Source: Bacteroidota bacterium
Lineage (GTDB): Bacteria; Bacteroidota; Ignavibacteria; UBA10030; UBA6906
Reading direction: 5' to 3'
DNA length: 64,000 nt
Assembly (NCBI GenBank): GCA_030835135.1
Contig: JAUQWO010000075.1
Coordinates: 275,330 to 339,329 of the forward strand
Notes under the pieces: model-generated
Told to the model about the DNA's origin: nothing
The model's database searches: none
What the model saw: only the letters and a program-made list of their open reading frames with translations
Made by a program: the position numbers and the translations under genes
Part shown: piece after piece, positions 337 through 57,511 of the stretch
Numbering within the stretch: the stretch's first letter is position 1
Layout of the letters: each line of letters begins with the position of its first letter

Positions 337-348
337 CCGTGGGCTCAC

Positions 349-932: not shown

Positions 933-936
933 TGAG

Positions 937-3563: not shown

Positions 3564-3629
3564 CTTTTGCATCATGAGGTAGGGAAGGGCTCGGTTTGTT
3601 CAACGGGCCCTTTCCATGTCAACAGAAAA

Positions 3630-4440: not shown

Positions 4441-4473
4441 GTAGCGTCGAGTGCCCAGAATAGGAGCGGCCCA

Positions 4474-5250
4474 ATGAAGTGTATGGTATTTGTCATTGCT
4501 TCATTTGCAATTTCGCAATCAGCATATCCTCAGACAATGATCATTCACAAAAGCGATCATTCGACGATCAGTCTTCATATGTACGAGATCGACAGTATTA
4601 CGTACTCTGCAGTCCCGAACCAGGCTCTCCAGTTCAATGGCACCTCCGATTATGTCCGCTTACCGTCGGGTTCGTCTTTGACCTCCTTTGGAACTCACAT
4701 CACAATCGAGGCGTGGATCAAGACTCTGGGAAGTGGGGGCGGCTTGGTGATCGCTTCGGGAAATGAAAATGAGTATACTCTGGCGATTTTGCCGAGTGGT
4801 AAAGTGGGAGCGACGATGGTAAACGTGAATCCTCAGACGGACGCGCTGTTCATAGGTCGAGCAACGCTGGCCACCAATAACTGGTATCATATCGCAGTGA
4901 CTTATGACGGGGCGATGGAAACCATCTTGATTAACGGCATTATCGATACTGCATTCTCAACCTCTGGCAATATCAGTTCAGCACAGATTGTGGAGAACAT
5001 CTCCTTAGGCTGCTACAGTGCCACCAACCATACACTCCACAATACCTTCCTGAATGGTCTGCTCGATGAAGTAAGAATATGGAATGTCACGCGAACGCCA
5101 GGTCAAATTCAATCCACCATCAATGCGGAGTTGTCGGGTAGTGAGCCAGGGCTAGTGGGTTACTGGAGATTGAATGGAGATGCCAAAGACGCTTCCCCGA
5201 ACGGCAACCATGGGACAATCTTCGGGAGTCCCACATTTGCAGATCGTTGA
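4474..5250 (+). CDS. Secreted LamG-domain (concanavalin A-like) protein
   Basis: A 258-residue exported protein with an AGGAG ribosome site 8 bases before the ATG. Residues 1-20 form a signal peptide ending YPQ. Residues 22-45 repeat the short module of the preceding gene (IIHKSDHSTISLHMYEIDSI). Residues 50-255 are a LamG-like jelly-roll: ALQFNGTSDYVRLPS, then ITIEAWIKT, then WYHIAVTYDG, then LLDEVRIWNVTRTPGQIQ, then GLVGYWRLNGDAKDASPNGNHG. LamG domains bind glycans or proteins outside the cell. It has no T9SS sorting domain, unlike its neighbours, so it may be periplasmic, or the sorting domain may have been lost. The AT-rich composition suggests a different origin from the flanking core genes. 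Confidence 0.85.
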   Translation: MKCMVFVIASFAISQSAYPQTMIIHKSDHSTISLHMYEIDSITYSAVPNQALQFNGTSDYVRLPSGSSLTSFGTHITIEAWIKTLGSGGGLVIASGNENEYTLAILPSGKVGATMVNVNPQTDALFIGRATLATNNWYHIAVTYDGAMETILINGIIDTAFSTSGNISSAQIVENISLGCYSATNHTLHNTFLNGLLDEVRIWNVTRTPGQIQSTINAELSGSEPGLVGYWRLNGDAKDASPNGNHGTIFGSPTFADR

Positions 5251-5353
5251 CTAGTAATCATGCATGACCAAAGGGAGAGCGTGGGGAAGGTGAGGCCTCA
5301 TCCTTGAGAGATGGCGGAGGCTTCTTCATAGCAACGGAACCTTTGCGAGGTTG

Positions 5354-6160
5354 ATGAGCCGAATCATGCAACATCTTCATATCGTACAAGGCGGGATCGA
5401 GAATGGGGATAAGGGAAGGCTCGAACGGGCCTCGGGAACTCGCACATGGATGCGTTCCTGGATTGTCCCGAAATCGGTGCGCCGCGGTGACGATGTAATC
5501 ATCCACGTGGGTAAGTTCGGGCTATTTGCCACTGCCGTGATTGCCTCACCTCCGATCAAGCGATCTGATTGGAGGAACAGGTATGGTGCCGCAATAGAGA
5601 AGATACGTCTGATCGAGCCACCAGTCTCTCTTGCTGCGGTCAAGCGATTTGTGCCTGATGTCACCTGGGCGAGATACCCCCGGAGCATTACAACCCCTTC
5701 GCGGAAGGTTGCTGTGAAGCTCCTGTTGTTGATTGAGAGGCGCCGCAAACAGAAATGTCCTGAAGCGATCGATCGACAGTTCATTCAAGAGGCCAACCTC
5801 GATGAGCTTCGCGCAATAGCACTTCTTCGGTCAAGGACTCGTCTTTTGGGACAATCCTCGAAGGCGGTACAATATGCTCGTTCGGAGGCGATTCGCTTGT
5901 ATGTACTAACTCGAGCGAAGGGGAAGTGTGAGGGATGCGGCAAACCCGCTCCATTTGTTAACCGGGAAGGGCGACCGTATATCGAACCACACCACGTTAC
6001 TCGCGTGGCTGACGGAGGTCCAGATCATCCCTCACGAGTAATCGGCTTGTGTCCGAATTGTCATCAGAGGGCACATCATTCGATCGACAGGAAGGAGTTC
6101 AACCGAAAGCTAAGAGCGAGGCTTGTGCGATTGGACCACCCTTGGCGGAAGTCCGGTTGA
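5354..6160 (+). CDS. HNH endonuclease with N-terminal PUA/EVE-like domain
   Basis: 268 residues. The C-terminal part (about 170-265) is an HNH nuclease: CEGCGKPAPF, then EPHHVTRVADGGPDHPSRVIGLCPNCHQRAHH, with zinc-binding CxxC pairs and the His-His/Asn/His metal site. The N-terminal part (about 15-150) has the look of a PUA/EVE-like fold: WIVPKSVRRGDDVIIHVG, then GLFATAVIASPP, then YGAAIEKIRLIEPP, then YPRSITTP. In such proteins the N-terminal domain is thought to read modified bases and the HNH domain to cut DNA, which would make this a modification-dependent restriction enzyme. HNH is certain; the N-terminal assignment is an inference from pattern. No methyltransferase is adjacent. The gene lies in the AT-rich stretch after tRNA-Thr, in keeping with transfer. 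Confidence 0.8.
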   Translation: MSRIMQHLHIVQGGIENGDKGRLERASGTRTWMRSWIVPKSVRRGDDVIIHVGKFGLFATAVIASPPIKRSDWRNRYGAAIEKIRLIEPPVSLAAVKRFVPDVTWARYPRSITTPSRKVAVKLLLLIERRRKQKCPEAIDRQFIQEANLDELRAIALLRSRTRLLGQSSKAVQYARSEAIRLYVLTRAKGKCEGCGKPAPFVNREGRPYIEPHHVTRVADGGPDHPSRVIGLCPNCHQRAHHSIDRKEFNRKLRARLVRLDHPWRKSG

Positions 6161-6243
6161 GGGGAAGCGTTCACACCGTCCCTCTATTGATTGTCTATGT
6201 GCTACCTGCGCCCATAATCAGGGGAGGTACTACGGATTCTCGA

Positions 6244-6483
6244 ATGTCACGAACGAATCGCAATGCGACACCTGACGCCTGCTCCCTTTGTGGCTCCTCC
6301 CGCATTGCCACGATCCTATACGGCATGCCTGCCTTCACACCGGAACTTCAGCAACAGCTCGACGCTGGTGAAGTCGTCTTGGGGGGATGTTGCATCGGAG
6401 ACAATGATCCTCAGTGGCAATGTCGCGACTGCAAGGCATATCTGCCCATAGGCGCAGATCTACTCGATTCAGAAGAGGATTGA
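6244..6483 (+). CDS. Small zinc-ribbon-like protein
   Basis: 79 residues from the ATG at 6244; the frame is open further upstream, but that part overlaps the HNH gene and looks non-coding. Four cysteine positions stand out: CSLCGSS near the start, then GGCCIGDNDPQWQCRDC. This gives two CxxC knuckles and a CC pair, typical of a small zinc ribbon. The middle (YGMPAFTPELQQQLDAGEVVLGG) matches a widespread uncharacterised bacterial family as I remember it. Function unknown. The stop codon is in the same frame as the next open frame and an AGGAGAGG ribosome site overlaps its end, so the two are likely cotranscribed. Confidence 0.65.
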   Translation: MSRTNRNATPDACSLCGSSRIATILYGMPAFTPELQQQLDAGEVVLGGCCIGDNDPQWQCRDCKAYLPIGADLLDSEED

Positions 6484-6495
6484 AGGAGAGGAACA

Positions 6496-6750
6496 ATTGA
6501 CAAACTTCGGAGCGATGCCGCGCACCAACGCCGAGCACTCCAGGTGCTGATGATGGTCCATGAAATCCACAAGGTGGGATACCAGATGCTGCGCATCGCC
6601 CCCGGGATGTCACCATCAGACGGGTATTGGCGCTGCGGAATCACACCTACAGAGAATATCATGGACAATCGACTGCCAAACATACCGGAAGTTAAGAGAA
6701 CGCCCCGATACTTGGGGCGCTTCCATATTTACCTCGGGCTCTCGGAGTGA
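6496..6750 (+). CDS. Small conserved protein, start unclear (ATT or internal GTG)
   Basis: The open frame begins right after the stop of the zinc-ribbon gene. Its protein, IDKLRSDAAHQRRALQVL then MMVHEIHKVGYQMLRIAPGM then SPSDGYWRCGITP, looks like a real folded family. No ATG, GTG or TTG in this frame precedes codon ATT at 6496, yet an AGGAGAGG sequence lies at the right distance upstream. The first standard start in frame is GTG at 6544, which would remove the conserved N-terminus. Either ATT is used, or this copy has lost its start. The C-terminus (RTPRYLGRFHIYLGLSE) runs through a GC hairpin (CGCCCC/GGGGCG at 6701-6716) and does not look conserved, so the 3' end may also be damaged. 84 codons. 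Confidence 0.45.
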   Translation: MDKLRSDAAHQRRALQVLMMVHEIHKVGYQMLRIAPGMSPSDGYWRCGITPTENIMDNRLPNIPEVKRTPRYLGRFHIYLGLSE

Positions 6751-6759
6751 ACATCGCGA

Positions 6760-6982
6760 GATCGATCCCTGGGATATCGTTGATGGACCAGTGCACCGTG
6801 TTTATGGCTGCAATCGCATCCCCCGGAGCGAATACTCTATCATCACGCGGGTAACATCTTCCGTGGATCCTGGCCAGAACGAGGTCAAGTTCGATGGCTG
6901 GTATCTCCCGAGCGAAGTGTATTTCTTTCGCATACAGGCGGGGAATTCTCTCAAGACGAGGAAGCTCTTGCAGGTAGTCTGA
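6760..6982 (+). pseudogene. Remnant of a T9SS type A sorting domain
   Basis: The last 35 codons before the stop at 6982 read DPGQNEVKFDGWYLPSEVYF then FRIQAGNSLKTRKLLQVV, clearly the end of a T9SS sorting domain (compare GYHEIKFDGANLPSGVYFYR in the gene at 1467). Upstream of this the expected NYPNPFNPSTTI core is missing and only scraps such as DGPVHRVYG remain. There is no signal peptide or start. It is a decayed 3' end of a former secreted-protein gene. Confidence 0.65.
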
Positions 6983-7141
6983 AGGGGTGGCATGGCAGGA
7001 CTTCGCATTGTACCGTGACCACAATCCCGCTGTTCGGGCGAGGCTCGCTGGATCTCCAGTGCCTCCCGCTTGGTGCTTGAGCGAACATCAGATTCACACC
7101 TGAGATCCCAGGCACCCGCCCGTCGAGCGGATACTGCGGAG
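6983..7141. other. Convergent gap, no feature seen
   Basis: Short sequence between the decayed sorting domain and the end of the minus-strand T9SS gene. No clear hairpin was found. Confidence 0.4.
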
Positions 7142-8581
7142 TCAGCGGATCAGCGTCATGCGCTTCACAACGTGCGAACCATTCGTGGCGAGCGAGTAGA
7201 AATACACACCCGACGGTAGCCTCGACGCGTCAAATGCCATTCCGTACACCCGCGATGCTTCCGCGGTCCCGTCGAAGAGCATTGCTACTTCTTCGCCGGT
7301 CAGCGAATGCACACGGAGAACCACGCGCCCGGTTTCGGGGACTGTGAAGCTGATCCTGGTGATCGGGTTGAACGGGTTTGGATAGTTCTGTTCAAGGACC
7401 AGACTTGCGGGGACGCGGTCAACGACTTGAAGAACCGTCTGATCGCACGCCACAGATGGACCGACGTGGCGCGTGCCATCCAGATCGATCTGGCATAGCC
7501 GGTAATACCACAGACCTCCACTCACTGTCGCGTCGCTGTACACGTACCGCTGCGGCTGGATGGTCGTCCCATGTCCCGCGATGAAGCTCCCTGGAAGGAC
7601 CGCAAACCCCGCACGCCCATCCGACGACCGTTCGACCTCGAAGCCATAGTTGTTCGTTTCGGTGAGGGTTTCCCATTCCAGACGGACCGATCCGCCGGAC
7701 GCACGGACAGCATGGAATGATGCGATCTGGACTGGCAGGTCAGGCCCCGTGGCGAAGAGGTCCACGAGCGCACTGTCGCCAGAGGAAAATACTGTTGAGG
7801 ACGTCGGCCATTGGTAGTCTGCCGTCATGTCGGTGAACTCCTCCGATGTGCCGGTTCTCCAGAGCCGATAGGAGATCGCATGTCCCTGTACGAATCCGTC
7901 GACACCCGGAGTCCCCGGATCGTCACGGGAAACGGTCACGAACTGACCCGACCCCGCATAGTCTTCGAAGTAGACCGAGCCCACACAGATATCGCCATCG
8001 TAGACACCGACCTCGTCTCCCCACCGCAATGGGATCCAATCGATCGCGACCATCGCGAATGAGATCTTCATCGGAAGGTACGGCATGCCATTCCACACCG
8101 GCGCGAAGTGCCGCGCTTCGCTTGGCAGGATAGAAAAAAGAGCGTCACCCTCGTCCGAAATCTCAGGATGCGCAACATCCGAGATGCGGACCCTGCAGGT
8201 GTATGAGGGTGATTCCGGCACGGTCCAGGCGTAGGACCCGGATGCCGCGGGAACACTGGCGGTGATCTCGCGCCATCCGATCGGTGCATAATAGGAGTAC
8301 TCGATCCGAACATCGCTCACTTCGCTGCTGCTCCATCGGATGGTCCAGACCGTTCCCGCCTGAAGAGTCTCATCGAGGTAGGGTGAGAGTAGCGTAATAG
8401 TAGGGGAGAGTGTTGTCCCCGGAGACCACTGCCGGTCGACCGGGGCCTGCTGCCCCGCCTGCAGGGATCCGCCCGACGGATCGCGGGGGAGAGGGTCGCC
8501 CGATCCAAGAGTTGAGGACCACAATGAAGTTGAGCAAAGGAGGAACAACCCTGTCCAGAGGATCCCTGCCGGATGACGCAT
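7142..8581 (-). CDS. Secreted T9SS type A protein with Ig-like and Fn3-like domains
   Basis: 479 residues. Two ATGs lie 6 bases apart; I chose the one at 8581 because AAGGAG then sits 6 bases upstream. Residues 1-22 are a signal peptide (GILWTGLFLLCSTSLWS). Residues about 65-165 resemble the Ser/Thr-rich Ig-like (Kre9/KNH-type) domain: ITLLSPYLDETLQAGTVW then TIRWSS, and later YTCRVRISDVAHPEISDEGD. A middle region (170-290) contains a domain with WIPLRWGDEVGVYDGDICVG, commonly found in surface proteins of this lineage. Residues about 295-390 resemble Fn3 (LEWETLTETNNYGFEVERS, then YYRLCQIDLDG). The last 85 residues are a T9SS sorting domain (NYPNPFNPITRISFTVP to KRMTLIR). It is probably a surface adhesin; no enzyme domain is visible. 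Confidence 0.85.
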   Translation of the reverse strand: MRHPAGILWTGLFLLCSTSLWSSTLGSGDPLPRDPSGGSLQAGQQAPVDRQWSPGTTLSPTITLLSPYLDETLQAGTVWTIRWSSSEVSDVRIEYSYYAPIGWREITASVPAASGSYAWTVPESPSYTCRVRISDVAHPEISDEGDALFSILPSEARHFAPVWNGMPYLPMKISFAMVAIDWIPLRWGDEVGVYDGDICVGSVYFEDYAGSGQFVTVSRDDPGTPGVDGFVQGHAISYRLWRTGTSEEFTDMTADYQWPTSSTVFSSGDSALVDLFATGPDLPVQIASFHAVRASGGSVRLEWETLTETNNYGFEVERSSDGRAGFAVLPGSFIAGHGTTIQPQRYVYSDATVSGGLWYYRLCQIDLDGTRHVGPSVACDQTVLQVVDRVPASLVLEQNYPNPFNPITRISFTVPETGRVVLRVHSLTGEEVAMLFDGTAEASRVYGMAFDASRLPSGVYFYSLATNGSHVVKRMTLIR

Positions 8582-46652: not shown

Positions 46653-49142
46653 ATGCCTCTGTCCCAGTTCCTCCGCCGGCCGGTTGTTCTCCTCGATCTC
46701 CTCGCTCTGGTCATCTGCTGTGCGGGGATCCTGCATATCCACCAGAAAGCCGGCCTGGGGATCGGCTTGATCGAGTCTGCGCATCAGATCGTCGTAGACC
46801 GTGTCACCGATGACCGTGCACACCCGGCTCTTCATCCCGGTGACCGCCTTGCAGCGCTCGACGGGCAGAACATTGCATACGTCGAGGATGTGGAATTCCT
46901 TCTCGATCTGCGCCATATCGGCGATACCGTTACGTGTACCGTGGAGCGTGCCGCTGGCAGGGAAACCCTTCCCGTCGCACTTGTGCCGTACTACTCAACG
47001 TCGTATCTGGTCATTGTCATCCTGGTGAGCTCCCTCTTTTATATCGTCGGGGTGTTCGTCCGATTCCGCCGGCCGGATGATCCTGCCGCACGGGTGTACC
47101 ACGCCGGTTCGGTCGGGACCGCCGTGATGCTTTCCACGACGTGGGGGCATCTCGGTCCTCCCCCCGAAGTGACCGGTGTCGTGCTCCGCATGGTGTTCTC
47201 CTCGGCCTACGTGTTCGTTCCCGTCTTCTTTCTTCATTTCGTACGCCTGTTCCCCCGGGCCCGCGGGCTCCATGCCGGCCGTATCATCCAGGCCGCACTG
47301 TATCTTCTCGCTGCCGTGCTTGCCGGAGCGAGCAGCGCGTCGTTCCTGGCCGCCGCACAGACCGGCCTGGTGACCGATTTCCATGTGCACCTCACGCTCT
47401 TCACCCTCACACGATATTTTCTGATCGCGCTTGTGCTCGCCGGACTGGTCGGCATCCGGCACTCGTACGTCCATGCCGGCGATGAGCCGGAGCGGCGCAG
47501 GCTCCGCTGGGTTGTCTGGGGACTCTTCGTCGGGTTCATCCCGTTCGTCGGGCTCTGGGTCATCCCCTCGATCGCGCTGTCGTATCCCCTCGTCCCGGAA
47601 GAGGTCATGCTGCTGGCCTCCGGCGCCATCCCGGTCGCCTTCGGCATCTCCATCGTCCGCTATCACATCATGGATGTGGACCTGCTCCTCGGGCGCAGTG
47701 TGGTCTACACCATCGTGATGGGGGCGCTCATACTCATCTACGCCATCATCGTCGGCGGAGCAGCAGCCCTGGCAACCACGATGGCGCACGAACCCTCCGT
47801 GATCGTTCCCGCCGTTGCTGCGATCATCATGGCGCTCTCGTTCGAACCGCTGCGCCGCGGAGTGCAGAACGTCGTGGACCGGCGCTACTTCCGGGTGCGC
47901 TACAATTTCCGGTTGGAAGGGCGACGCCTCCTCGACGGCATCGTGCGATCGCATTCCCTCGGGTCGCTGGGGGAACGGATCATCACGGACCTCCCCGGCG
48001 TGATCCCGATGGAGAAGCTGGCACTGCTGCTCACGCACAGGGACACGGGAACGTTCGAGGTCCTCGCATCGTCCGGTTGCGATGAAGAAGACTCATTGCC
48101 GGTACAGGTGCAGGATATCTGGTCGGGTGAGCGCGGACCCCTGGGCAGTGCGGAGTTCATCGAGCCAGGCCTTCCGTATGCGACCATGCCGCCGCAGGTG
48201 CGGGAGCGATGGGGCATCGTCCTGGCGATCCCGATGGTGGCAAAGGAACAGCCGTCCCTCACGGCCATGCTGGTCTGCGGACGGAAGCGCGCCGGCACGC
48301 GATTCAGCAACGAGGATGTGGACCTCCTCACGACGGTGTGCGGGAGCGCGGGGACCGAGATCGAGCGCATCCTCCTCACCCGGGCATACCTCGAATTGCA
48401 GCAGGCCGAAGAACGGTTGAAAGTGTTGAACGCCATGAAATCGGACTTCGTGTCGTACGTCTCACACGACCTCCGCACACCGCTCACCTCGATCAAGATG
48501 TACGCCGAACTCCTGCGGGCGAGAGTGCCACGGCTCGACCGTAAGGCGATGGACCATCTTGCGGTGATCCAGGGGGAGGCGGACCGCCTGAACCGCATGG
48601 TGACGACCATCCTGGATTCCGCGCGCATCGAACAGGGAGCGGTTCAGTACACCCTGCAGACGGTGGACCTGCGCAAGGCGATACGCACGGTCCTGCGCCT
48701 GATGTCGTATCAATTCACGAAGGAAGGCGTCGCCATCGATCTGCACCTGCCTCCCGGCCGTGCGCCGTTATGGGTGCATGCCGACCCCGATGCGGTGCGT
48801 GAAGCGTTGCTGAATCTCCTCACGAACGCGATGAAGTATTCCCCCAACGACAAGCACATTACGATCGCGGCGGCCCGCACCCGTTCGGGGATCGCTCTTC
48901 GCGTGCGCGACCGGGGGATCGGGATCCGACAGGAGGTGGTGCCGCACCTCTTCGACAAATTCTATCGCGATCCCTCGTTGCCCGGGAAGGTCCAGGGCGT
49001 CGGGATCGGCCTGTCCGTTGTGAAACATATCATGGATGCGCACGGCGGCAGGGTGGAGGTGCAGAGCGCACCCGGACAGGGCTCGGAATTCAGTCTCATC
49101 TTTCCCACATCACAGCGCACACCCGGGGGTCAGAGAACATGA
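46653..49142 (+). CDS. Large membrane histidine kinase (PDZ-like, multi-TM, GAF-like, HisKA, HATPase)
   Basis: 829 residues from the ATG at 46653 (GGAGAG upstream); the open frame reaches back to 46044, antisense to smpB, and is not coding. Order: one TM helix (about 9-28); a periplasmic PDZ-like segment (HPALHPGDRLAALDGQNIAY, then TCTVERAAGRETLPVALVP); about seven TM helices to residue 400; a GAF-like domain up to about 580; a coiled linker; HisKA with the phospho-His near residue 608 (SYVSHDLRTPLTSIKM); and HATPase with NLLTNAMKYSPNDKH, VRDRGIGIRQE, LFDKFYRDPS and GVGIGLSVVKHI. The PDZ plus membrane-helix arrangement suggests sensing of envelope proteins or ligands. A 4-base ATGA overlap with the next gene defines the partner regulator. 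Confidence 0.9.
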   Translation: MPLSQFLRRPVVLLDLLALVICCAGILHIHQKAGLGIGLIESAHQIVVDRVTDDRAHPALHPGDRLAALDGQNIAYVEDVEFLLDLRHIGDTVTCTVERAAGRETLPVALVPYYSTSYLVIVILVSSLFYIVGVFVRFRRPDDPAARVYHAGSVGTAVMLSTTWGHLGPPPEVTGVVLRMVFSSAYVFVPVFFLHFVRLFPRARGLHAGRIIQAALYLLAAVLAGASSASFLAAAQTGLVTDFHVHLTLFTLTRYFLIALVLAGLVGIRHSYVHAGDEPERRRLRWVVWGLFVGFIPFVGLWVIPSIALSYPLVPEEVMLLASGAIPVAFGISIVRYHIMDVDLLLGRSVVYTIVMGALILIYAIIVGGAAALATTMAHEPSVIVPAVAAIIMALSFEPLRRGVQNVVDRRYFRVRYNFRLEGRRLLDGIVRSHSLGSLGERIITDLPGVIPMEKLALLLTHRDTGTFEVLASSGCDEEDSLPVQVQDIWSGERGPLGSAEFIEPGLPYATMPPQVRERWGIVLAIPMVAKEQPSLTAMLVCGRKRAGTRFSNEDVDLLTTVCGSAGTEIERILLTRAYLELQQAEERLKVLNAMKSDFVSYVSHDLRTPLTSIKMYAELLRARVPRLDRKAMDHLAVIQGEADRLNRMVTTILDSARIEQGAVQYTLQTVDLRKAIRTVLRLMSYQFTKEGVAIDLHLPPGRAPLWVHADPDAVREALLNLLTNAMKYSPNDKHITIAAARTRSGIALRVRDRGIGIRQEVVPHLFDKFYRDPSLPGKVQGVGIGLSVVKHIMDAHGGRVEVQSAPGQGSEFSLIFPTSQRTPGGQRT

Positions 49143-49975
49143 AGCGCATTCTCGTCGTTGAAGACGATGCCGCGATCAGGAACGGACTGGAAGAGGTCCT
49201 GGCCGCGGAACACTATCAGGTCCTGATCGCCGCGAACGGCACCCAGGCACTGAGCCTGGGCAAGAAGGAGAACCTGGATGTGATCATCCTGGACCTCGGC
49301 CTGCCGGATATCAATGGCGAGGATGTCTGTCAGCAGCTCCGGGATGCCGGCGTCCCCACCCCGATCCTCATGCTCACGAGCAAGAGTCAGGAGATGGACA
49401 AGGTGATGGGGCTGGAGAAGGGCGCGGACGACTATATGACGAAGCCCTTCAGTGTCCGCGAGTTGGTCGCGCGGCTGCGTGCACTTCTGCGCAGGGAGCG
49501 GGGCGTGAAGAAGGACCTGGAGGAGTACGCATTCGGTGCGGCCGTCGTGGATTTCAAGAAGCAGGAAGCCACGTTCGCCGGGAAGCCCGTCAAACTGTCG
49601 GTGCGTGAATACGCGGTGCTGAAATACCTCATCATGCATGAGGGTGAGGTGGTGACGCGGGACATGCTGTTGAACGATGTCTGGGGGTACGAACAATTCC
49701 CGACCACGCGCACGGTGGACAATTATATCCTCGCGCTCCGCAAGAAACTCGAAGGGAAGACCACGGCGGCGAGGCACATCCTGACGGTCCATACGGCAGG
49801 ATACAAGTTCGTCAGAGAGAAGGACGAAGGTACAGGGGAGAAGAAAGAGGCGAAGGCGCAGCAGGAAGAAGGATCGAGCAAGGGCAAAGGAAAGAAGCAA
49901 CGTGCGGCGAGTGGGATCGCCGGGGGGGACAAGAAGCGCTCAGCGACAAGAAAGGACAATACACCGAGATCCTGA
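49139..49975 (+). CDS. OmpR-family response regulator with lysine-rich tail
   Basis: 278 residues. Receiver 1-115: acidic pair VVEDDAAIR, acceptor Asp in VIILDLGLPDINGED, Thr/Ser in LMLTSKSQE, Lys in YMTKPFSVREL. Winged-helix DNA-binding domain about 125-225: KLSVREYAVLKYLIMHEGEV, VWGYEQFPTTRTVDNYILAL, RKKLEG and LTVHTAGYKFV. After the usual OmpR end, a tail of about 50 residues rich in Lys/Glu/Gly/Arg follows (EKKEAKAQQEEGSSKGKGKK, then DKKRSATRKDNTPRS). It is the cytoplasmic partner of the preceding kinase. The tail could add non-specific DNA binding or be unstructured. Confidence 0.93.
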   Translation: MKRILVVEDDAAIRNGLEEVLAAEHYQVLIAANGTQALSLGKKENLDVIILDLGLPDINGEDVCQQLRDAGVPTPILMLTSKSQEMDKVMGLEKGADDYMTKPFSVRELVARLRALLRRERGVKKDLEEYAFGAAVVDFKKQEATFAGKPVKLSVREYAVLKYLIMHEGEVVTRDMLLNDVWGYEQFPTTRTVDNYILALRKKLEGKTTAARHILTVHTAGYKFVREKDEGTGEKKEAKAQQEEGSSKGKGKKQRAASGIAGGDKKRSATRKDNTPRS

Positions 49976-50102: not shown

Positions 50103-51500
50103 TCAGGCCACTGCTCGCATGTTCGCCTGCCGGCTCACCGTAGACCGCCCCGGCCCCTGCGCGATCCGCACCTGAGCGTGATGCCGCTGGAACACCGACA
50201 GCTTGAAGTAGATCCCCGACGAGATCGCCAGGCGGAACGCGAAGCGCACGATGCTCTCATGTCGTTCCTGCATCCACAGGAACCGCCACCACCGGCGGAT
50301 GATCGCACGCCACCCGTAGAACCCCAGCACCACCGTGCGGTAGGCGGCATGGATCTGTTCAGGGGTGAGGTGCTTGTGCCGGAAGACCAGATGGTCGCCC
50401 TCGTAGTGTGAGAGGTCGTCGTCCACAAGCCGGCCCTCGTCAACGATCTTCCGGTACAGCGGTGTGCCATAGATCGGGATCGCGATAGAGGGGAGGATGA
50501 CCATCGTCCCGACCTCTTCCAGCAGCGCCGGGAGCCTGCGGTAATACTCCTCCGTGTCCTCATCCAGCGCGAACATGAGCCCCGTGAAGGTGAGGATGCC
50601 GAGGCGGTGCAGCTTCGCGAACGCCCCGCGGTATTCTCCGACGTTGTTCTGCCGCTTCTGCACGTCGTTCAGGCTCTCCGGCGACAGCGATTCCATTCCG
50701 ATGAATGCCATGCGCCCTCCGGCTTTCGCCAATGCCTCGACGAACGCATTGTCACGCAGTGAATCGATGGAGAACTGCGCACCCAGCGCCCAGAGCTTCA
50801 GCTTCGCGATCTCGCCGAGGAGCTCCTTCGCATACTTCAGATCGCCGCCCAGGTTGTTGTCCAGCAGCATCGCCAGCTTGCGCTTGTACCATGGCACTCC
50901 CCGGGTGTTGGTCAGGTCGCGGATCACGTCCGTGATCGGACGGGTGCGATGCGGTGCGCGCTTGATGTTGAGTGCGCAATAGGTGCACGGGTGCGGACAG
51001 CCACGCGTGGCCTCCGTGACGATCGGGGTGGCGTATGCCGGTTCGGCAAGATCGTATCGCGGCGGGGGCATGCCGTCGAGGCAGCTATCCAATGGTGCAT
51101 CATAGCGCGGCCGCAATCGTCCTGCAACGAGGTCCTCCACCATGCGCGGCCACATCTGCTGCGCTTCGCCCACGAGGATCGCATCGAAGTGCGGTTGCAC
51201 CTCCTCCGGGAACGTGGAGGCGAACTTGCCTCCCCCGATCACCGTCTTGCCCATGGCCCGAAACCGTGCGGCCACCTCGTATGCATGCGGTGCAAGGTAA
51301 TCCATGAAGCTCAGTGCGATGCATTGCGCCGGTGTCGCATAGTCGATGGGACGCACCATCTCGTGGAGAACCTCGACATCCACGAAGGGCGGTGTCAGGG
51401 CTGCCAGCAGGAGTCCGGGCAACGGGGGGGCCGGACTCTGCGCGTAGTACGGGTTGTCCTCGCCGAGGTTCTGGAAAAGGACGATGATCTGGATCGTCAT
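50103..51500 (-). CDS. B12-binding-domain radical SAM enzyme
   Basis: 465 residues from the ATG at 51500. Residues 1-135 resemble the cobalamin-binding fold placed before many radical SAM domains (IIVLFQNLGEDNPYYAQS, PLPGLLLAALTPPFVDVEVL, GKTVIGGGKFASTFPEEVQP, DAILVGEAQQMWP), but the DxHxxG cobalamin ligand motif is not evident. The radical SAM domain follows: TEATRGCPHPCTYCALNIKR holds the CxxxCxxC cluster ligands, then LAMLLDNNLGGDLKYAKELL, FIGMESLSPESLNDVQKRQN and FTGLMFALDEDTEEYYRRLP. Such enzymes use S-adenosylmethionine for methylation, cyclisation or C-C bond formation on unreactive carbons. Last gene of the 50-56 kb operon; 4 bases after the oxoamine synthase. Substrate unknown. Confidence 0.88.
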   Translation of the reverse strand: MTIQIIVLFQNLGEDNPYYAQSPAPPLPGLLLAALTPPFVDVEVLHEMVRPIDYATPAQCIALSFMDYLAPHAYEVAARFRAMGKTVIGGGKFASTFPEEVQPHFDAILVGEAQQMWPRMVEDLVAGRLRPRYDAPLDSCLDGMPPPRYDLAEPAYATPIVTEATRGCPHPCTYCALNIKRAPHRTRPITDVIRDLTNTRGVPWYKRKLAMLLDNNLGGDLKYAKELLGEIAKLKLWALGAQFSIDSLRDNAFVEALAKAGGRMAFIGMESLSPESLNDVQKRQNNVGEYRGAFAKLHRLGILTFTGLMFALDEDTEEYYRRLPALLEEVGTMVILPSIAIPIYGTPLYRKIVDEGRLVDDDLSHYEGDHLVFRHKHLTPEQIHAAYRTVVLGFYGWRAIIRRWWRFLWMQERHESIVRFAFRLAISSGIYFKLSVFQRHHAQVRIAQGPGRSTVSRQANMRAVA

Positions 51501-51504
51501 CCGC

Positions 51505-52824
51505 TCAGGCTGCGTGCAGACGGGTCGTGCCATGGTCCGTGCCCTCCTGGTTGTGCCGGCATGCGTGCCATACCTCGCCGACGGCCCTGGTGAGCCGTTC
51601 GATGTCGTCGCCGGTATGTGTCGCCATGATGCTGATGCGGAACCGTTGCTGCGTGACCGGCACCGCCGGGTATTCGATCGAATTCACGAAGATGCCTTTC
51701 TCATGGAAGAGCCGCGATGCGTGACGGATGTCCATCCACGCCGGCACGATGAGCGGAATGATCGCGGTCTCCGGGTGGACATCGAAGCCAATGCGGTTCA
51801 GGCACGCCGCGGCGTACGCGATGTTCTGCTTCAGGTGCCACCGGCGCTCGGGCTCCTGCTCCAGCACATCGAGTCCGGCGAGCACCGTGGCGACCACCAC
51901 GGGCGAGAGCGAGGCCGAGAACATGTACGGCCGTGCGAAATAGCGGAGATAATCGATCACGGGCTTCGGGCCGGCGATGAAGCCGCCGGTGACCGCGAAG
52001 GTCTTGCTGAACGTGCCCATACTGATGGCGATCGCGTCCTTGACTCCGAAGTGCTCTGCCGTGCCGCCGCCATTGGCTCCCATCACGCCCGTGCCGTGGG
52101 CGTCATCGACGAGAAGCATCGCATCGAATTCCCTGCATACTGCGACGAGCTCCGGCAACGGGGCCAGGTCGCCATCCATGGAGTAGACGCCTTCGACCGC
52201 AACGTACCGGTCGCCTGTTCTCTCGGTTCCTGCTGCCACAAGCAACGCGCGCAGTGCGTTCAGATCGTTATGGGGGAAGCAGTGCGCCTGCACACCGGCC
52301 ATCTTCATGCCATCGCAGAACGATGCGTGGCTGTACGCGTCGTAGTAGACCGTGTCCGTCTTCTGCATGAGTCCGGCCACCAGACCCACATTCGCTGCAT
52401 AGCCGCTGGCGAACACGAGGGCATCCTCGGTCCCTTTCAGGGCCGCCAGCCGCTGCTCGAGCTCACGGTGGAGCGTGGTATACCCGTTGAGCAGCGGCGG
52501 GCCGCCGACCCCGGCGCCGAATTCCTCCAGCGCCGCCGCGGTGCGTGCGCGCAGATGCGGATGGGTGGCGAGGCCGAGATAGTTATTGGAGCCGAACATG
52601 AGCATGGGCCGCGTCGCCCCGGTGGCCGGATCAGCGACCCGGACCTCCCGGTCGGCTGCCGATGTGATGCAACGCCGCGTCAGAAGTTCACCGTGCTCTT
52701 CGAGGTCCCGGAGGAACCCACCGAAGAACCGCGTTCGGTCGGCAAGCCGCATGTGACGACCGCGGAGCAGCATGTCCCGCAGATCGAAATTCTCCCCACC
52801 TCGGTACTCCTGCTCGTGTGTCAT
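51505..52824 (-). CDS. Alpha-oxoamine synthase (serine palmitoyltransferase/KBL-like)
   Basis: 439 residues with an AGGAGA ribosome site. PLP-dependent enzyme that condenses an acyl-CoA with an amino acid and releases CO2. Key segments: MLMFGSNNYLGLATHPHLRA, GVGGPPLLNGYTTLHRELEQ, FASGYAANVGLVAGL, YDAYSHASFCDGMKMAG, LVDDAHGTGVMG, and the PLP lysine in SMGTFSKTFAVTGGFI. The order fits the AOS group (BioF, KBL, HemA, SPT). An N-terminal extension of about 70 residues (RHMRLADRTRFFGGFLRDLE) favours SPT-like enzymes over BioF. Neither biotin nor sphingolipid companion genes are nearby, but a lipid-kinase homologue and a prenyltransferase are in the same operon. Cytoplasmic. Confidence 0.9.
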   Translation of the reverse strand: MTHEQEYRGGENFDLRDMLLRGRHMRLADRTRFFGGFLRDLEEHGELLTRRCITSAADREVRVADPATGATRPMLMFGSNNYLGLATHPHLRARTAAALEEFGAGVGGPPLLNGYTTLHRELEQRLAALKGTEDALVFASGYAANVGLVAGLMQKTDTVYYDAYSHASFCDGMKMAGVQAHCFPHNDLNALRALLVAAGTERTGDRYVAVEGVYSMDGDLAPLPELVAVCREFDAMLLVDDAHGTGVMGANGGGTAEHFGVKDAIAISMGTFSKTFAVTGGFIAGPKPVIDYLRYFARPYMFSASLSPVVVATVLAGLDVLEQEPERRWHLKQNIAYAAACLNRIGFDVHPETAIIPLIVPAWMDIRHASRLFHEKGIFVNSIEYPAVPVTQQRFRISIMATHTGDDIERLTRAVGEVWHACRHNQEGTDHGTTRLHAA

Positions 52825-52893
52825 GACCGGATCTCCTGTTGTTCAACCTGGTGCAATGTACCTGACGCAAGCACCCGGCATGTCATGTTTTTG

Positions 52894-53934
52894 TCACGAA
52901 GCTGTAGAATCCTGCGCGGACGCGGCGATTCCCAGCAGCTCCGCGATGTAGGCCTGCACGGTGCCGCCATCGGGTGGATCCATGTTACGGATGACAGCCC
53001 GGTGGTCGGGGCCGAACGACCCAACCCCGGGGATCACGATCCTGTCGCGTTCCGTAGCTGTCCCGATGTACCGGCATTCTCTTCCGGCAACGAGGATCGG
53101 CGCACGGTGGGGTGGTGTCACCGACGGAGAGAGGGCGAAGACCAATTCGAATTCACCATGCGGCCCTGCAAGAAACAGCCACGGTGGCAGGCCCATCGCC
53201 TCTGCGACCGCGAGGGTCTCATCACCGAGAATTGCATTCCATGTCTGTGGGAGTTCGAACCCGACGCCGTTCAACCGTGCGAGCTGGTCCAGCGTCGCCA
53301 GCAGCCCGTCGCTGGTGTCCATACACGCCGACGCAAGGCCGCGGAGAGCGCGGCCTTCACGGAGCCGTGCCGTGGGGAGGTACGAGGGCGACCGGGATGC
53401 TCCCGAAAGCAGCGCCGCCGCAAACGCATTGCCCGCGCCGAGCTGGCCCGTACAATAGATGCTGTCGCCCGGACGGATGCCGATGCGTGTGAGCGCGGGA
53501 GTGCCGCTCACAGCACCGACCGCGGTGCCGGTGAGTTGCAGCCGGTCTCCAGTATTAGTGTCGCCGCCCAAGACCCAGCTTCCGCACGCCGAACACGCGT
53601 CATGGATCCCTTCCTGAACACGGGCGATCGCCGGCGGATCCATCGCGGTGGGAAAGGTCTCGGCGATGAGGATGCCCAACGGTTCCGCACCCACCGCGGC
53701 GATATCGCTGAAATTCGCCATCACCAGCATCCATCCGGCCAGCCACGGATCGGCATAGAGCCCGGAGGCGATCTCTTCAGCAATGGTATCGGTCGTCAGG
53801 GCCAGCGTATGATCATCACCAAGGCGAAGCAGCTCGGCATCGCTGTGCTGCAGCTCGTTGAGCTGGCGGGGCGATCGGCTGAAGCGCTGGGTGAGAGATG
53901 CGATCATTGCGAGTTCACGGACGTTCGTTGTCAT
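52894..53934 (-). CDS. ThiL/AIR synthase-like ATP-dependent kinase
   Basis: 346 residues of the PurM/ThiL fold. Metal and nucleotide-binding residues appear in LGDDHTLALTTDTIAEEI, VMANFSDIAAVGAEPLGILI, VLGGDTNTGDRLQLTGTAVG, GDSIYCTGQLGAGNAFAAAL and ACMDTSDGLLATLDQLARLN. The SDG and GGDTN motifs are those of thiamine-monophosphate kinase. The sequence deviates from usual ThiL in the C-terminal third and its neighbours have nothing to do with thiamine, so it more likely phosphorylates a pathway intermediate or carries out an AIR synthase-like ATP-dependent step. The start overlaps the lipid-kinase stop by 4 bases. Confidence 0.85.
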   Translation of the reverse strand: MTTNVRELAMIASLTQRFSRSPRQLNELQHSDAELLRLGDDHTLALTTDTIAEEIASGLYADPWLAGWMLVMANFSDIAAVGAEPLGILIAETFPTAMDPPAIARVQEGIHDACSACGSWVLGGDTNTGDRLQLTGTAVGAVSGTPALTRIGIRPGDSIYCTGQLGAGNAFAAALLSGASRSPSYLPTARLREGRALRGLASACMDTSDGLLATLDQLARLNGVGFELPQTWNAILGDETLAVAEAMGLPPWLFLAGPHGEFELVFALSPSVTPPHRAPILVAGRECRYIGTATERDRIVIPGVGSFGPDHRAVIRNMDPPDGGTVQAYIAELLGIAASAQDSTAS

Positions 53935-54857
53935 GGACAGACCTTCAGTGCCTGTGGAACTACCTCGAAGCGCACAGATGACGCGCGCACGGTCTCCCCG
54001 TCGAATTCAATGGCGATGGGGGCGGGGGAGGACAACGTGATCGACGGGGTCGACCAGGAGCGGACCCCGGGAAGACCACCGGTCGTTCCGTGCAGGAGCG
54101 ATCGGAGGAGCTGGATCCGCCGGGGGATATCCATCCCTTCGCACGCGACCACCGTGAAACGGCCGTTCTCGTAATCCCGTTCGGCGTCGTAGTGAAGTTC
54201 TCCCGAGAAGAAGGGACTCTTCAGGATGCCGATGTTCGTGAGGGCCAGATCGACCGGCCTCGACCCGGGGACGGTGATGGTCACGGGGGCATTCTTGTAC
54301 GCGACCAATGATGTCAATGCCGCATAGGTGATCGCGGCGGACACGCTTACGCGCTTGAGCACTCTGAGAATTGGTCCGGGTGCATTGAACCGGGAATTCC
54401 CCTCGGCCGTGATCCCTGCGCTGGCGTTGAGGAAGAAGTATCTGGTCGTTTTCTGACCCTCCGATCCGATCGTGATCCGTCCGGCATCGCACCGGGATGC
54501 GCGCGAGAAGTCGAGACGCGCCGGGATCCCGTCGATTGATCCGGCCTCACTCCGTGGCTTATGAAAGTCGTTGCTCGATCCAAGTCCGATGGCTCCGAGG
54601 GTGATCGTTCCAGCGTATGCGGAAGATGCGCTCAGCAATGCGTTGACAACGGCATTCGCTGTGCCGTCGCCGCCTGCTGCAACGACACGCCGATCGGCCG
54701 ATCCGAAGCATGAAGCCAGTCCCCGGGCAATGGCATCGGGACCAGCCATCACCACGGTCCGGAATGCGCCGAAGCGGTCGCGCATGGCCGGCTCAATCCG
54801 GCGCCATTTCATCAGGCCCGTGCCGGCGCCCGAACGGGGATTGACGAAGACGATCAT
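53931..54857 (-). CDS. Diacylglycerol/sphingosine kinase-family lipid kinase
   Basis: 308 residues from ATG 54857 (the open frame extends far upstream but is then antisense or overlaps the UbiA gene). Segments: MIVFVNPRSGAGTGLMKW, VVAAGGDGTANAVVNALL (the GGDGT nucleotide motif), LGAIGLGSSNDFHK, GRITIGSEGQKTTRYFFLNA and the C-terminal AIEFDGETVRASSVRFEVVP. This is the DAGK catalytic fold (YegS/DgkB/sphingosine kinase), which transfers phosphate from ATP to a lipid hydroxyl. The protein has no membrane segment. Both ends overlap the neighbouring genes by 4 bases, showing tight coupling to UbiA and the ThiL-like gene. Confidence 0.9.
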   Translation of the reverse strand: MIVFVNPRSGAGTGLMKWRRIEPAMRDRFGAFRTVVMAGPDAIARGLASCFGSADRRVVAAGGDGTANAVVNALLSASSAYAGTITLGAIGLGSSNDFHKPRSEAGSIDGIPARLDFSRASRCDAGRITIGSEGQKTTRYFFLNASAGITAEGNSRFNAPGPILRVLKRVSVSAAITYAALTSLVAYKNAPVTITVPGSRPVDLALTNIGILKSPFFSGELHYDAERDYENGRFTVVACEGMDIPRRIQLLRSLLHGTTGGLPGVRSWSTPSITLSSPAPIAIEFDGETVRASSVRFEVVPQALKVCP

Positions 54858-55813
54858 ATCTGACTCACTTCCGTCCGAGAGGAGAGGACGAGTTGAAATG
54901 TGCCATAGAACAGGAGCAACGGGATCGTCCACAGCGGATGCATGGCCGCGATCGCGGCAGAGAGCATGATGATGTAGCTCTCCACCACGAGGCGGATCGG
55001 TGCATGGGCTGTGCGGTCGTCGGTGTTCCGGTGAAGCAGGATCTGCGCTCTGATCGATAGCCACAGCCCCCAGCCGGACAGCAGGATCCCCGGTGCGGCA
55101 TCCCAGGCCGATGCCCACGTGCGTTGCAGGTTCCAGAGGTGGAGCAGCAGACCGGCAAGCGCGGCGGCGGCGAACAGATCGCTGACGATCGCTGCCGCTC
55201 TCCGCCCGAACACGACCGGGAACGTATGGTAGCCCGTCTGGCGGTCGGCCTCGATGTCCTTGAAGTATCCCGCGATGACGAAGTTGGCATAGCCGGCGAA
55301 CGCAACGACCATCAACGGGATGATCGTGCCGGGCAGTGCAGGAGAGGATCCATCGGTTCCCGCAAAGTATCCCATAAGAAAGAGGACGGACACGATCCAT
55401 GCATTGTACCACGGGCCGCCCCACCAGCGGCGTTTGAACCACGTGTATGTTGCGAGTCCGCCGACCGCAAGGGCGCCGAACGCGAGATTGATCGTGTTCC
55501 CTGCCGCAAAGAGGACCGAGCAGAGCGTGAGTCCGAGCAGACTCGTGATGAGCACTGCCCTCCGGCTGATGGTCCCCTGCACCAGCGGACGGTACGGAGC
55601 GGAGATCGCATCGGTGTCCGTCTGGAAGCAATCGGTGAGTGCCTGCCCGAATCCGTACGAAAGAAAGGATGCGATGAACACCGGAATGATCACCGCCGGC
55701 GGCACGTGTCCGGCGGCGGCAACGCCGGCGAGTCCGGTGATCCCCGAAAGGAACAACAGATACGGCCTCATGGTGATGAGCATGGCCCTGGTGAACTGTG
55801 CTGTCGTGTGCAT
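54854..55813 (-). CDS. UbiA-family prenyltransferase
   Basis: 319 residues from ATG 55813, with GGAGG 6 bases upstream. About eight or nine hydrophobic helices. The two aspartate-rich motifs of the family are DCFQTDTDAISAPYRPLVQG (DxxxD form) and FKDIEADRQTGYHTFPVVFG. The SAPYRPLVQGTIS stretch resembles chlorophyll synthase-like and archaeal lipid-type UbiA members more than ubiquinone enzymes. The reaction attaches an isoprenoid diphosphate to an aromatic ring, sugar or lipid headgroup in the inner membrane. It is the first gene of the minus-strand operon; a weak promoter-like pair lies upstream. Confidence 0.9.
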   Translation of the reverse strand: MHTTAQFTRAMLITMRPYLLFLSGITGLAGVAAAGHVPPAVIIPVFIASFLSYGFGQALTDCFQTDTDAISAPYRPLVQGTISRRAVLITSLLGLTLCSVLFAAGNTINLAFGALAVGGLATYTWFKRRWWGGPWYNAWIVSVLFLMGYFAGTDGSSPALPGTIIPLMVVAFAGYANFVIAGYFKDIEADRQTGYHTFPVVFGRRAAAIVSDLFAAAALAGLLLHLWNLQRTWASAWDAAPGILLSGWGLWLSIRAQILLHRNTDDRTAHAPIRLVVESYIIMLSAAIAAMHPLWTIPLLLFYGTFQLVLSSRTEVSQI

Positions 55814-56224
55814 CGGGTCCTCCATTGGTTGCTGATCCAACCTACGGGATCGGGTGCCCGGGGATGTCATGGAAAGGTCATATCGGGGTCAACGGATCAC
55901 GGGAGCGTGTTCTTCCGGAATTGCGTCGGGTGGCTGACAGTGTGCGTTTCATCCGTGGTCTGACAGAGATAGCGCTTCCTTGTGGAATTCAGTATGTTGC
56001 GCGCGGGAGAGGGGCCCGGTCACAGTGCAAACCATCCGCGAACGAGTGCGCGGTGCAGATGGACCCGCACCACATCATCCGCCGGGTGGGTCATCGGAGA
56101 CGCGGGACCTTGACGATCCCGCGGGGGGATTTGTTGCACGGCTGTGACAGCTTTGTGACATATGCAGAGGGGGTGCGTGTATCTTTGTGCTGTCCACACC
56201 ATACCACCACAACGGAGGATCATC
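55814..56224. other. Divergent intergenic region
   Basis: Separates the UbiA operon (minus) and the phospholipase C-like gene (plus). No gene is seen. A possible minus-strand promoter (TTGACC, 17 bases, TGACAT; 55864-55892) is only a partial match. On the plus strand nothing better than TATCTT near 56180 was found. Confidence 0.4.
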
Positions 56225-57511
56225 ATGGACACTGCAAAGAAATTGCTCGTTGCTTCGGTCGTGCTGCTTGTTGCGGCGCAGAGTGCATTCTCCTGGGGGA
56301 ATGCAACACACGTCTACTTCGCGAAGGAACTCGGTACCCGCTTCGGACTCATGAATGCCCATGAGATGTATGGGGCCGTCCTGCCCGATGCGTTCAACTT
56401 CATGTTCGACGCGAATGGACAGATCCTGTACGATGCCACTCACCATCAGTTTCTTCCCTTGTATCAGAACGCCTGGAAGCCGGCGCTGAAGTCCACCGGC
56501 TTCGGGTTCGTTTCGCACAATGATACCTGGGGTGCGGACTACACCGCGCATCACAGCGCCTTCACCTCGCCGGGCGAAGGATATGCGATCGCCAAGGGTG
56601 CGGTGCTGGCACCGCAACTCATTCCCGTGCTCGTACAGATCCTCACCAACGCCGGCCTCCCCTCACCCGATGCCGAATACGTGGCGGGTGCGCTGGCGCC
56701 GGAGATGGGGCACGACCTGAGCGAGACGGCGGTGGACCTCCTGGTCCGGAGGAATCTGGATCGTGCCGTTGGTATGCGGATGATGGCCGCGGCGCAGACG
56801 CGTCCCGCGGACGTGCCTCAGCTGCTTGCCACGACCTACGGTCCGGGACTTGCGGCCGCAACAGGCGTGTCGGAGGCGGAAGCCCGGGCGCTGATCATCG
56901 GCGCGGAGAATGATTACAGGACGCTCATCACGCAATACGGGTTGGCCTTCACGCTTGCCGAGCCGAAGACCATTGCGATGCTGGCGGCGCAGACCGCGCC
57001 GGTTGCGGAGATGCTCATCGAAGCGAATGTCGGGGGCGTCGATGTGACCGTGACGGCGGAGCAGGTCGCCGGTTTCATCCAGGCTGCGATCACGGTCGTG
57101 GAGCCCGATTACAGGCGCGAGCTTGCTGCGACGCTCCGGTTCGTCGAACGCAGCATGCGCGAGCACGGCGTCCGGCCGGTGTTCTTTGGCTTTGCATGCG
57201 ATGAGAACGGGGGCGAGGTGCCGTCGACGGATGCCGCGACGGCTCCGGAGGAGTTCAGCCTTGGCCAGAATTACCCGAACCCCTTCAACCCGTCCACGAC
57301 GATCGCGTATGCGGTACCTGCGGATGCGAGGGTGTCGCTGCGCGTGTATAACACGCTCGGCGAACAGGTTGCCACGCTCGTCGATGAGCTGCTTCCTGCC
57401 GGGCAGCATCAGTCGACCTGGCACGCTGCCGGCATGCCGAGCGGGCTGTACTTCTACAAGCTCGAGAGTGCCGGTGTGACGATGACGAAGCGGATGATGC
57501 TCGTGAAGTAG
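56225..57511 (+). CDS. Secreted zinc-dependent phospholipase C-like protein with T9SS domain
   Basis: 428 residues from ATG 56225, with GGAGG upstream. Residues 1-22 are a signal peptide ending AFS. The mature protein begins WGNATHVYFAKELGTRF, like zinc-dependent phospholipase C proteins that start with a metal-binding Trp and a nearby His. Further candidate zinc ligands are His in DATHHQFLP, VSHNDTWGADYTAHHSAF and LAPEMGHDLSETAVD. The last 85 residues are a T9SS type A sorting domain (NYPNPFNPSTTIAYAVP to KRMMLVK). The likely activity is phosphodiester hydrolysis of lipids on the cell surface, but the zinc assignment rests on motif reading only. A hairpin follows at 57553. Confidence 0.75.
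   Translation: MDTAKKLLVASVVLLVAAQSAFSWGNATHVYFAKELGTRFGLMNAHEMYGAVLPDAFNFMFDANGQILYDATHHQFLPLYQNAWKPALKSTGFGFVSHNDTWGADYTAHHSAFTSPGEGYAIAKGAVLAPQLIPVLVQILTNAGLPSPDAEYVAGALAPEMGHDLSETAVDLLVRRNLDRAVGMRMMAAAQTRPADVPQLLATTYGPGLAAATGVSEAEARALIIGAENDYRTLITQYGLAFTLAEPKTIAMLAAQTAPVAEMLIEANVGGVDVTVTAEQVAGFIQAAITVVEPDYRRELAATLRFVERSMREHGVRPVFFGFACDENGGEVPSTDAATAPEEFSLGQNYPNPFNPSTTIAYAVPADARVSLRVYNTLGEQVATLVDELLPAGQHQSTWHAAGMPSGLYFYKLESAGVTMTKRMMLVK

Follow-up and report, generated by a model that had tools for sequence, protein, structure and literature searches.

Bacterial sphingolipid synthesis has been described in Caulobacter, whose ceramide pathway comprises Spt, CerR, CerS and the ceramide kinase CpgB (PMC11324152). 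Elsewhere, the enzyme AprD4 works with the reductase AprD3 (PMC5461906), and in ThiL, the thiamine monophosphate (TMP) kinase, a monophosphate attacks the gamma-phosphate of ATP in-line, with the TMP site lying at the interface of the enzyme's two domains (PMC6416309). Here we analyze a 64,000-nucleotide stretch of DNA (the window) from a Bacteroidota bacterium (Ignavibacteria; UBA10030; UBA6906; assembly GCA_030835135.1, contig JAUQWO010000075.1, positions 275,330 to 339,329), which carries an operon of a UbiA-superfamily transferase, a DAGK-type lipid kinase, a ThiL-like kinase, an alpha-oxoamine synthase (AOS) and a radical SAM enzyme. A literature search, in which subscription journals and preprints were thinly covered, found no paper joining these families, in agreement with a preliminary description of this DNA that could name no pathway using all five. 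Because of their conserved linkage the genes almost certainly form one pathway, and the chemistry of their families makes a membrane lipid its likely product.

The five genes of the operon, with the basis of each assignment, are as follows.

54854-55813, minus strand: UbiA-superfamily membrane transferase (Pfam, predicted model, motif conserved in 33 sequences)
53931-54857, minus strand: DAGK/YegS-type lipid kinase (Pfam DAGK_cat and YegS_C, conserved motifs)
52894-53934, minus strand: ThiL-like kinase of the AIRS superfamily, not a thiamine enzyme (TIGR01379 score, motif comparison)
51505-52824, minus strand: AOS of the serine palmitoyltransferase (SPT) lineage, in a clade of its own (nearest PDB entry, tree, pyridoxal phosphate lysine Lys274)
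50103-51500, minus strand: radical SAM enzyme with an N-terminal alpha/beta domain (Pfam, predicted model, CxxxCxxC)

ATGA overlaps of 4 bases each join the UbiA and DAGK genes and the DAGK and ThiL-like genes, 69 bp separate the ThiL-like gene from the AOS gene, and 4 bases lie between the AOS and radical SAM genes. Open reading frames (ORFs), Pfam and NCBIfam confirm what had been read from the letters, namely five minus-strand genes of these families with 4-base junctions at 50103-55813. All five proteins miss every NCBIfam equivalog cut-off and are therefore not ordinary ThiL, BioF, SPT or named UbiA enzymes.

Linkage and distribution of the cassette

When 84,980 species genomes were searched with the radical SAM alignment, 43 loci carrying the same radical SAM subfamily were identified, and most of the sufficiently long loci also carry the UbiA, DAGK and ThiL-like genes. 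The combination of these three with the radical SAM gene occurs in Ignavibacteria/Bacteroidota (Cyclobacteriaceae, Prolixibacteraceae), Acidobacteriota (Aminicenantes), Gemmatimonadota, Cloacimonadota, Stahlbacteria and WOR-3, where individual phylum names are to be taken cautiously, as some metagenome-assembled genomes are possibly mis-binned. A Kapaibacteria contig (L067) carries ThiL-AOS-radical SAM, running to the contig end. The predicted UbiA, DAGK and ThiL-like proteins are the near-constant core of the cassette across phyla, with the DAGK and ThiL-like genes adjacent in most loci.

At least eight gene orders are found across the mapped loci. The window has UbiA-DAGK-ThiL-AOS-radical SAM; other arrangements include radical SAM-ThiL-AOS-DAGK-UbiA (L057), UbiA-DAGK-ThiL-radical SAM-AOS (L141) and, with genes for short-chain dehydrogenase/reductases (SDRs) interspersed, ThiL-AOS-DAGK-UbiA-SDR-radical SAM (L068), AOS-UbiA-DAGK-ThiL-SDR-radical SAM (L060, L070, L072) and DAGK-UbiA-ThiL-SDR-TM4-SDR-radical SAM (L058, L075), in which TM4 is a small membrane protein described below. 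That the genes have been kept together despite this reshuffling is strong evidence for a shared function, and the linkage is far beyond chance. The reading of the operon as one dedicated lipid-type pathway, conserved as such in other genomes, is thereby strengthened by loci from several phyla.

Within the host's order, five relatives from two families carry an orthologous cassette, split over contigs in two of the five. Among 391 relatives, an orthologous radical SAM protein is encoded by 21 (≥648 bits, with the next best match at 283), UbiA by 22 (not counting a divergent copy in G104) and AOS by 23; UbiA and AOS co-occur in 22 (Fisher p ~4e-35, not corrected for shared ancestry). The cassette is thus patchy, at about 6% of these relatives. 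The rates at which the five proteins diverge are correlated among loci (r 0.52-0.83). Conservation in relatives and in other phyla rules out a local five-gene curiosity, and the cassette had no match in viral contigs.

Membership is less fixed than linkage. Five of the 391 relatives have UbiA and AOS without the cassette radical SAM gene; three of these loci (L132, L133, L134) are complete four-gene units, and two (L135, L136) are cut by contig ends. The radical SAM enzyme is thus a common partner that the cassette can do without. Of the five-gene unit proposed in the preliminary description, the linkage holds and the fixed membership does not, with the radical SAM gene absent from these five loci, AOS absent from Acidobacteriota and Gemmatimonadota loci, and SDR genes missing from the window operon. 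Several cassette loci have peculiarities of their own. In L134, a DUF3419 (BtaA-like) gene and a GNAT gene (3433-5531, minus strand) lie directly downstream of the UbiA-DAGK-ThiL-AOS set; in L137, an ORF fusing an endonuclease/exonuclease/phosphatase domain to an Omp85 barrel (4282-6192, minus strand) stands beside a divergent UbiA-ThiL-DAGK set. The DAGK gene of L021 (7143-8140) is interrupted by ambiguous assembly bases, and in genome G002 the ThiL-like gene lies in two pieces on separate contigs (L025, L027).

Two architectures can be distinguished. In the mapped non-duplicate loci AOS occurs 23 times and TM4 15 times, never both. TM4, a small four-helix membrane protein without a Pfam match, replaces AOS in cassettes of Acidobacteriota, Gemmatimonadota and one further bacterium (L066). 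Whole-genome searches found TM4 in 5 of 5 TM4-type genomes and in none of 14 AOS-type genomes. An SPT-like AOS lies elsewhere in nearly every TM4-type genome searched; no SPT-like gene was found in that of L065. Examples of the TM4 gene are as follows.

L058, 4648-5073: TM4
L061, 6656-7156: TM4
L063, 6795-7355: TM4
12 further loci: TM4

In both architectures the gene set includes one or two SDR reductases, one adjoining the radical SAM gene and one near UbiA or ThiL. The window operon has no SDR gene, and a search of its own genome found no close relative of the UbiA-side SDR (best match 27% identity). The cassette in L070 includes a long-chain acyl-CoA ligase, and genes for an HpnN-like MMPL transporter and a LolA-like protein lie near the cassette in L061, L063 and L065, which fits a lipid of the outer membrane.

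Sequence features of the enzymes

The UbiA protein matches PF01040 (E 3.5e-27, 95.7 bits against a cut-off of 34.2), and its predicted model (pLDDT 95) is nearest in fold to the archaeal digeranylgeranylglyceryl phosphate (DGGGP) synthase 6m31 (E 2.6e-9) and to ApUbiA (4od5, TM 0.70), with the membrane phosphoribosyltransferase 8j8j also among the fold matches. Its Asp motifs read TDCFQTDTD and GYFKDIEAD. Across 33 sequences the first is T-D-C-F-Q-x-D-T-D, with slight variation at C and F and none at T, Q and the last D; compared with the canonical N-D-x-x-D-x-x-x-D, N has become T (T60) and D has become Q (Q64). In the second, the first Asp is replaced family-wide by Tyr (GYxKDxxAD, with small variations), and the two intact Asp-rich motifs (NxxxDxxxD and DxxxD-type) are not found in this protein. 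The acids of both motifs are otherwise kept and a basic Y-x-x-x-K pair is invariant (Y123 and K127, taken here as the counterparts of residues that bind diphosphate in other UbiA enzymes). These features suggest a diphosphate site with changed metal binding and perhaps a changed donor. The isoprenoid transfer first assigned to this protein stands as far as family and fold are concerned, whereas ordinary prenyl transfer is uncertain with the Asp motif altered family-wide.

The lipid kinase matches DAGK_cat (E 3.1e-16, 59.5 bits against a cut-off of 23.6) and YegS_C, and keeps GGDGT and E-x-DGE in 31 sequences. The ThiL-like protein matches AIRS (E 5e-22), and its nearest PDB entry is a TMP kinase (140 bits); against the thiL model TIGR01379 it scores 149 bits, below the cut-off of 184, compared with 270-317 bits for true ThiLs of the order. 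The acids of the ATP/metal site (D32, D49, D77, D125, D206, D209) are invariant in 28 sequences. Of 29 sequences, nearly all have E-E-I-x-x-G instead of the thiamine motif V-E/A-G-x-H-F, and in the family G-x-HGEFEL has taken the place of the C-terminal GG(D/E)(D/E)YEL. The second, C-terminal domain is unrecognised by Pfam, which, given the location of the TMP site in ThiL, fits a changed substrate.

The AOS matches Aminotran_1_2 (E 2e-55), and its pyridoxal phosphate lysine, Lys274, is invariant in cassette sequences. It scores 378 bits against bioF (TIGR00858), below the cut-off of 426, and 349 bits against the CFB serine palmitoyltransferase model NF047600, below the cut-off of 640, which the second SPT-like protein of the same genome, at 486 bits, also misses. 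The nearest PDB entry is the Sphingobacterium SPT 3a2b (344 bits), ahead of KBL/BioF (321), KBL (292), BioF (259) and the cysteate acyltransferase CFAT 28eh (256), the AOS type expected of a sulfonolipid or capnine pathway. In a tree of 47 rows, the cassette AOS forms its own clade, sister to SPT and not inside it (support for the pair 96/95), and lies outside KBL (100/99), BioF and ALAS. The AOS of Cloacimonadota and WOR-3 cassettes forms a second clade near SPT, which indicates either that the cassette acquired AOS two or more times or that one AOS was exchanged for another. An unlinked AOS with an N-terminal extension, in a TM4-type Aminicenantes genome (L114, 4674-5951, plus strand), falls with the cassette clade on a long branch. 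The tree and the NCBIfam cut-offs rule out a BioF or KBL function, as the tree proposed as a check in the preliminary description was to decide; the enzyme is of the SPT lineage and may use L-serine and a long-chain acyl donor. The host genome also has an ordinary SPT-like gene elsewhere, beside a CerR-like epimerase gene (L029).

The radical SAM protein (Radical_SAM, E 7.6e-11) is the most conserved cassette member, with 52-77% identity to the window protein in 39 sequences, among which C168, C172 and C175 of the CxxxCxxC at 168-175 are invariant. Its predicted model (pLDDT 88) includes the N-terminal alpha/beta domain and is nearest in fold to AprD4 (6fd2, E 2e-17, 18% identity), then MgmA and TsrM. 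The earlier label of a B12-domain enzyme is upheld for the radical SAM and alpha/beta folds, but B12 binding is suggested at the level of fold only: Pfam finds no B12-binding domain, and the NCBIfam B12/radical SAM models stay below cut-off. Among solved structures its closest relative is the radical SAM dehydratase AprD4, and the fold match is thus no proof of cobalamin use. An SDR gene precedes the radical SAM gene in many loci. A tetrapyrrole pathway, with a BchE-like radical SAM enzyme, a ChlG-like UbiA and an ALAS-like AOS, was rejected, as the AOS lies apart from ALAS and scores are far below the BchE and ChlG cut-offs.

A candidate lipid pathway and its alternatives

The best single model, to which we give a probability of roughly one in three, is that serial phosphorylation makes a diphosphate that UbiA joins to an acceptor. 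The phosphate-on-phosphate chemistry of the ThiL fold and the tight pairing of the DAGK and ThiL-like genes are the basis from which we infer two kinase steps. DAGK would phosphorylate a lipid alcohol, and the ThiL-like kinase, from a family that converts monophosphates to diphosphates, would add the second phosphate. The resulting alkyl diphosphate would serve as the UbiA donor, with loss of pyrophosphate and joining of the chain to a membrane acceptor; the kept Y-x-x-x-K and acids, together with T and Q in motif 1, fit a diphosphate donor other than the common prenyl diphosphates. In AOS-type cassettes, including that of the window, AOS would make the acceptor, a sphingoid-type amino alcohol, from acyl-CoA and an amino acid, with reduction by an SDR that would be encoded elsewhere in the host genome. 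The radical SAM enzyme and the adjacent SDR would then tailor the lipid, perhaps removing or rearranging a hydroxyl as AprD4 and AprD3 do.

Several points weigh against this model. The enzyme roles, the lipid and the substrates are all predicted from sequence. Cells make prenyl diphosphates directly, and a kinase route needs an alcohol for which no supplying gene is known here. The usual UbiA reaction proceeds by ionisation of an allylic diphosphate, which a saturated alkyl diphosphate would not undergo in the known way; the changed UbiA motif may also reflect loss of the reaction or a switch to another one. Finally, cassettes of Acidobacteriota and Gemmatimonadota lack AOS; an ordinary SPT-like gene lies elsewhere in most of the genomes concerned, but none was found in that of L065. 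An undescribed lipid class in several phyla, consisting of a sphingoid-type amino alcohol joined by UbiA to a serially kinased chain and tailored by the radical SAM enzyme, is a tentative proposal, in which the TM4 cassettes would represent a second form acting on a different acceptor. The unusual lipid or prenylated amino-lipid suggested in the preliminary description remains a guess.

The main rival, itself doubtful, is the prenylation of a sphingoid phosphate from a standard prenyl diphosphate. AOS and an SDR would make the base, DAGK would make a base-1-phosphate resembling geranylgeranylglyceryl phosphate, and UbiA would add an ordinary prenyl chain in the manner of DGGGP synthase, with the ThiL-like kinase later making a head-group diphosphate. 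DAGK-type kinases do phosphorylate sphingoid lipids. A ceramide kinase operates in Caulobacter sphingolipid synthesis (PMC11324152), the AOS is of the SPT lineage, and the closest solved folds to UbiA are DGGGP synthase and ApUbiA. However, the change of NDxxDxxxD to TDCFQxDTD and of the first Asp of motif 2 to Tyr is unexpected for standard prenyl diphosphate use, the role of the ThiL-like kinase is left loose, and AOS stands outside the universal core.

It is unlikely that the cassette instead builds a head group, with DAGK making ceramide- or sphingoid-phosphate and UbiA transferring a polar group whose diphosphate donor the ThiL-like kinase would supply, a scheme modelled on the UbiA-family DPPR synthase, which uses phosphoribosyl pyrophosphate and decaprenyl phosphate. 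The altered metal motif and the fold match to 8j8j are in keeping with it, as is L137, where the divergent UbiA-ThiL-DAGK set lies near an epimerase gene and an acyltransferase-like gene similar to genes that adjoin SPT elsewhere; yet the likeness of UbiA to DPPR synthase is weaker than that to DGGGP synthase, and no sugar-phosphate enzyme is linked to the cassette. We consider equally improbable an overlay of two functions, a UbiA-DAGK-ThiL-AOS lipid pathway and a separate SDR-linked radical SAM reaction that often share a locus. The five relatives with UbiA and AOS but no cassette radical SAM gene (L132-L136) would fit such an overlay, as would G104, which has the radical SAM and SDR genes at one site (L048) and the L137 set elsewhere on the contig. 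Against it, most loci in several phyla have the radical SAM gene next to the core, and the radical SAM protein has diverged in step with AOS (r 0.83).

That the ThiL-like protein is the genome's working thiamine kinase, in the operon by accident, has very little probability: it is the only ThiL-type protein there apart from HypE (the sole other high-scoring AIRS relative, with two further weak matches), but the host genome (G000) has no ThiE (no PF02581 match) and hence no de novo TMP, no true ThiL was found in any genome searched of the host's family, most cassette-free relatives in the family lack both ThiE and a true ThiL, G032 holds a true ThiL (309 bits) alongside an AOS-radical SAM cassette locus, and the gene, its thiamine motif lost, is linked to UbiA and DAGK in several phyla. 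A thiamine role is rejected on these grounds, and the preliminary suggestion of a borrowed kinase is well founded. In the serial-kinase model, as by its sequence comparisons, the protein is most likely a vitamin-type kinase repurposed for a lipid pathway with an altered UbiA.

Genomic neighbours and described systems

Downstream of the operon and convergent with it lie two plus-strand genes.

49139-49975, plus strand: OmpR/PhoB-type response regulator (family match, recurrence beside the cassette)
46653-49142, plus strand: sensor histidine kinase with PDZ, GAF, HisKA and HATPase domains (partner of the response regulator); the ORF opens at 46044, with a probable start at 46653

About 20 loci, Aminicenantes L075 among them, have a homolog of the response regulator (45-81% identity) next to the cassette, and the histidine kinase is present in most of these. 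The two-component system probably controls the operon. Relatives of the histidine kinase are also found in genomes without the cassette, and the family is common in the order; the pair is a frequent neighbour, yet not exclusive to the cassette, and was rejected as cassette-specific. Upstream, divergent from UbiA, a gene at 56162-57511 (plus strand) encodes a secreted protein sorted by the type IX secretion system, with an ortholog at the same place in G016 (L021, 52% identity); by eye its N-terminal part resembles zinc-dependent phospholipase C, without Pfam support. Positions 1-8000 of the window have a G+C content of 0.54-0.56, compared with about 0.62 elsewhere, and a tRNA-Thr gene at 815-890, possibly marking an inserted element.

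Similarly to the bacterial sphingolipid pathway, the cassette has an AOS of the SPT lineage, an SDR or other dehydrogenase in many loci, a lipid kinase and, in one locus, an acyl-CoA ligase. Unlike that pathway, it adds UbiA, the ThiL-like kinase and the radical SAM enzyme, and carriers such as the host genome keep an ordinary SPT-like gene by a CerR-like gene elsewhere. The salvage of phytol to tocopherol (VTE5, VTE6, HPT) follows the logic proposed here, two successive phosphorylations of an alcohol followed by UbiA transfer, with kinases of other families than those of the cassette; the cassette differs in having no aromatic acceptor genes, and its AOS and radical SAM enzyme have no counterpart there. 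With DGGGP synthase and ApUbiA the cassette UbiA shares fold and family, but not the motifs, N/D being T/Q in motif 1 and the first Asp of motif 2 being Tyr throughout. AprD4 and AprD3, diol dehydratase and reductase of apramycin synthesis, are matched by the nearest fold and by a reductase gene beside the radical SAM gene, although they act on a sugar antibiotic, sequence similarity is low and the cassette function is predicted. The ThiL-like kinase shares the AIRS fold and the ATP/metal acids with ThiL but not its substrate motif, and differs in its C-terminal domain and in a genome without a TMP source.

Taken together, a multi-phylum cassette matching no pathway found points to a widespread membrane lipid of undescribed structure and provides lipid discovery with a defined set of genes, many of its carriers being uncultured lineages with poorly known membrane lipids. 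It shows a thiamine-type kinase reused in apparent lipid chemistry, and its UbiA subfamily, with a fixed change in the metal motif, offers a test of donor change in the superfamily. All the enzymes have known families, and the one at the entry of the pathway is of sphingolipid type; new are the UbiA, DAGK and ThiL-like core, the exchange of AOS and TM4, the SDR partners, the family-wide change in the UbiA motifs and the dispensable radical SAM enzyme.

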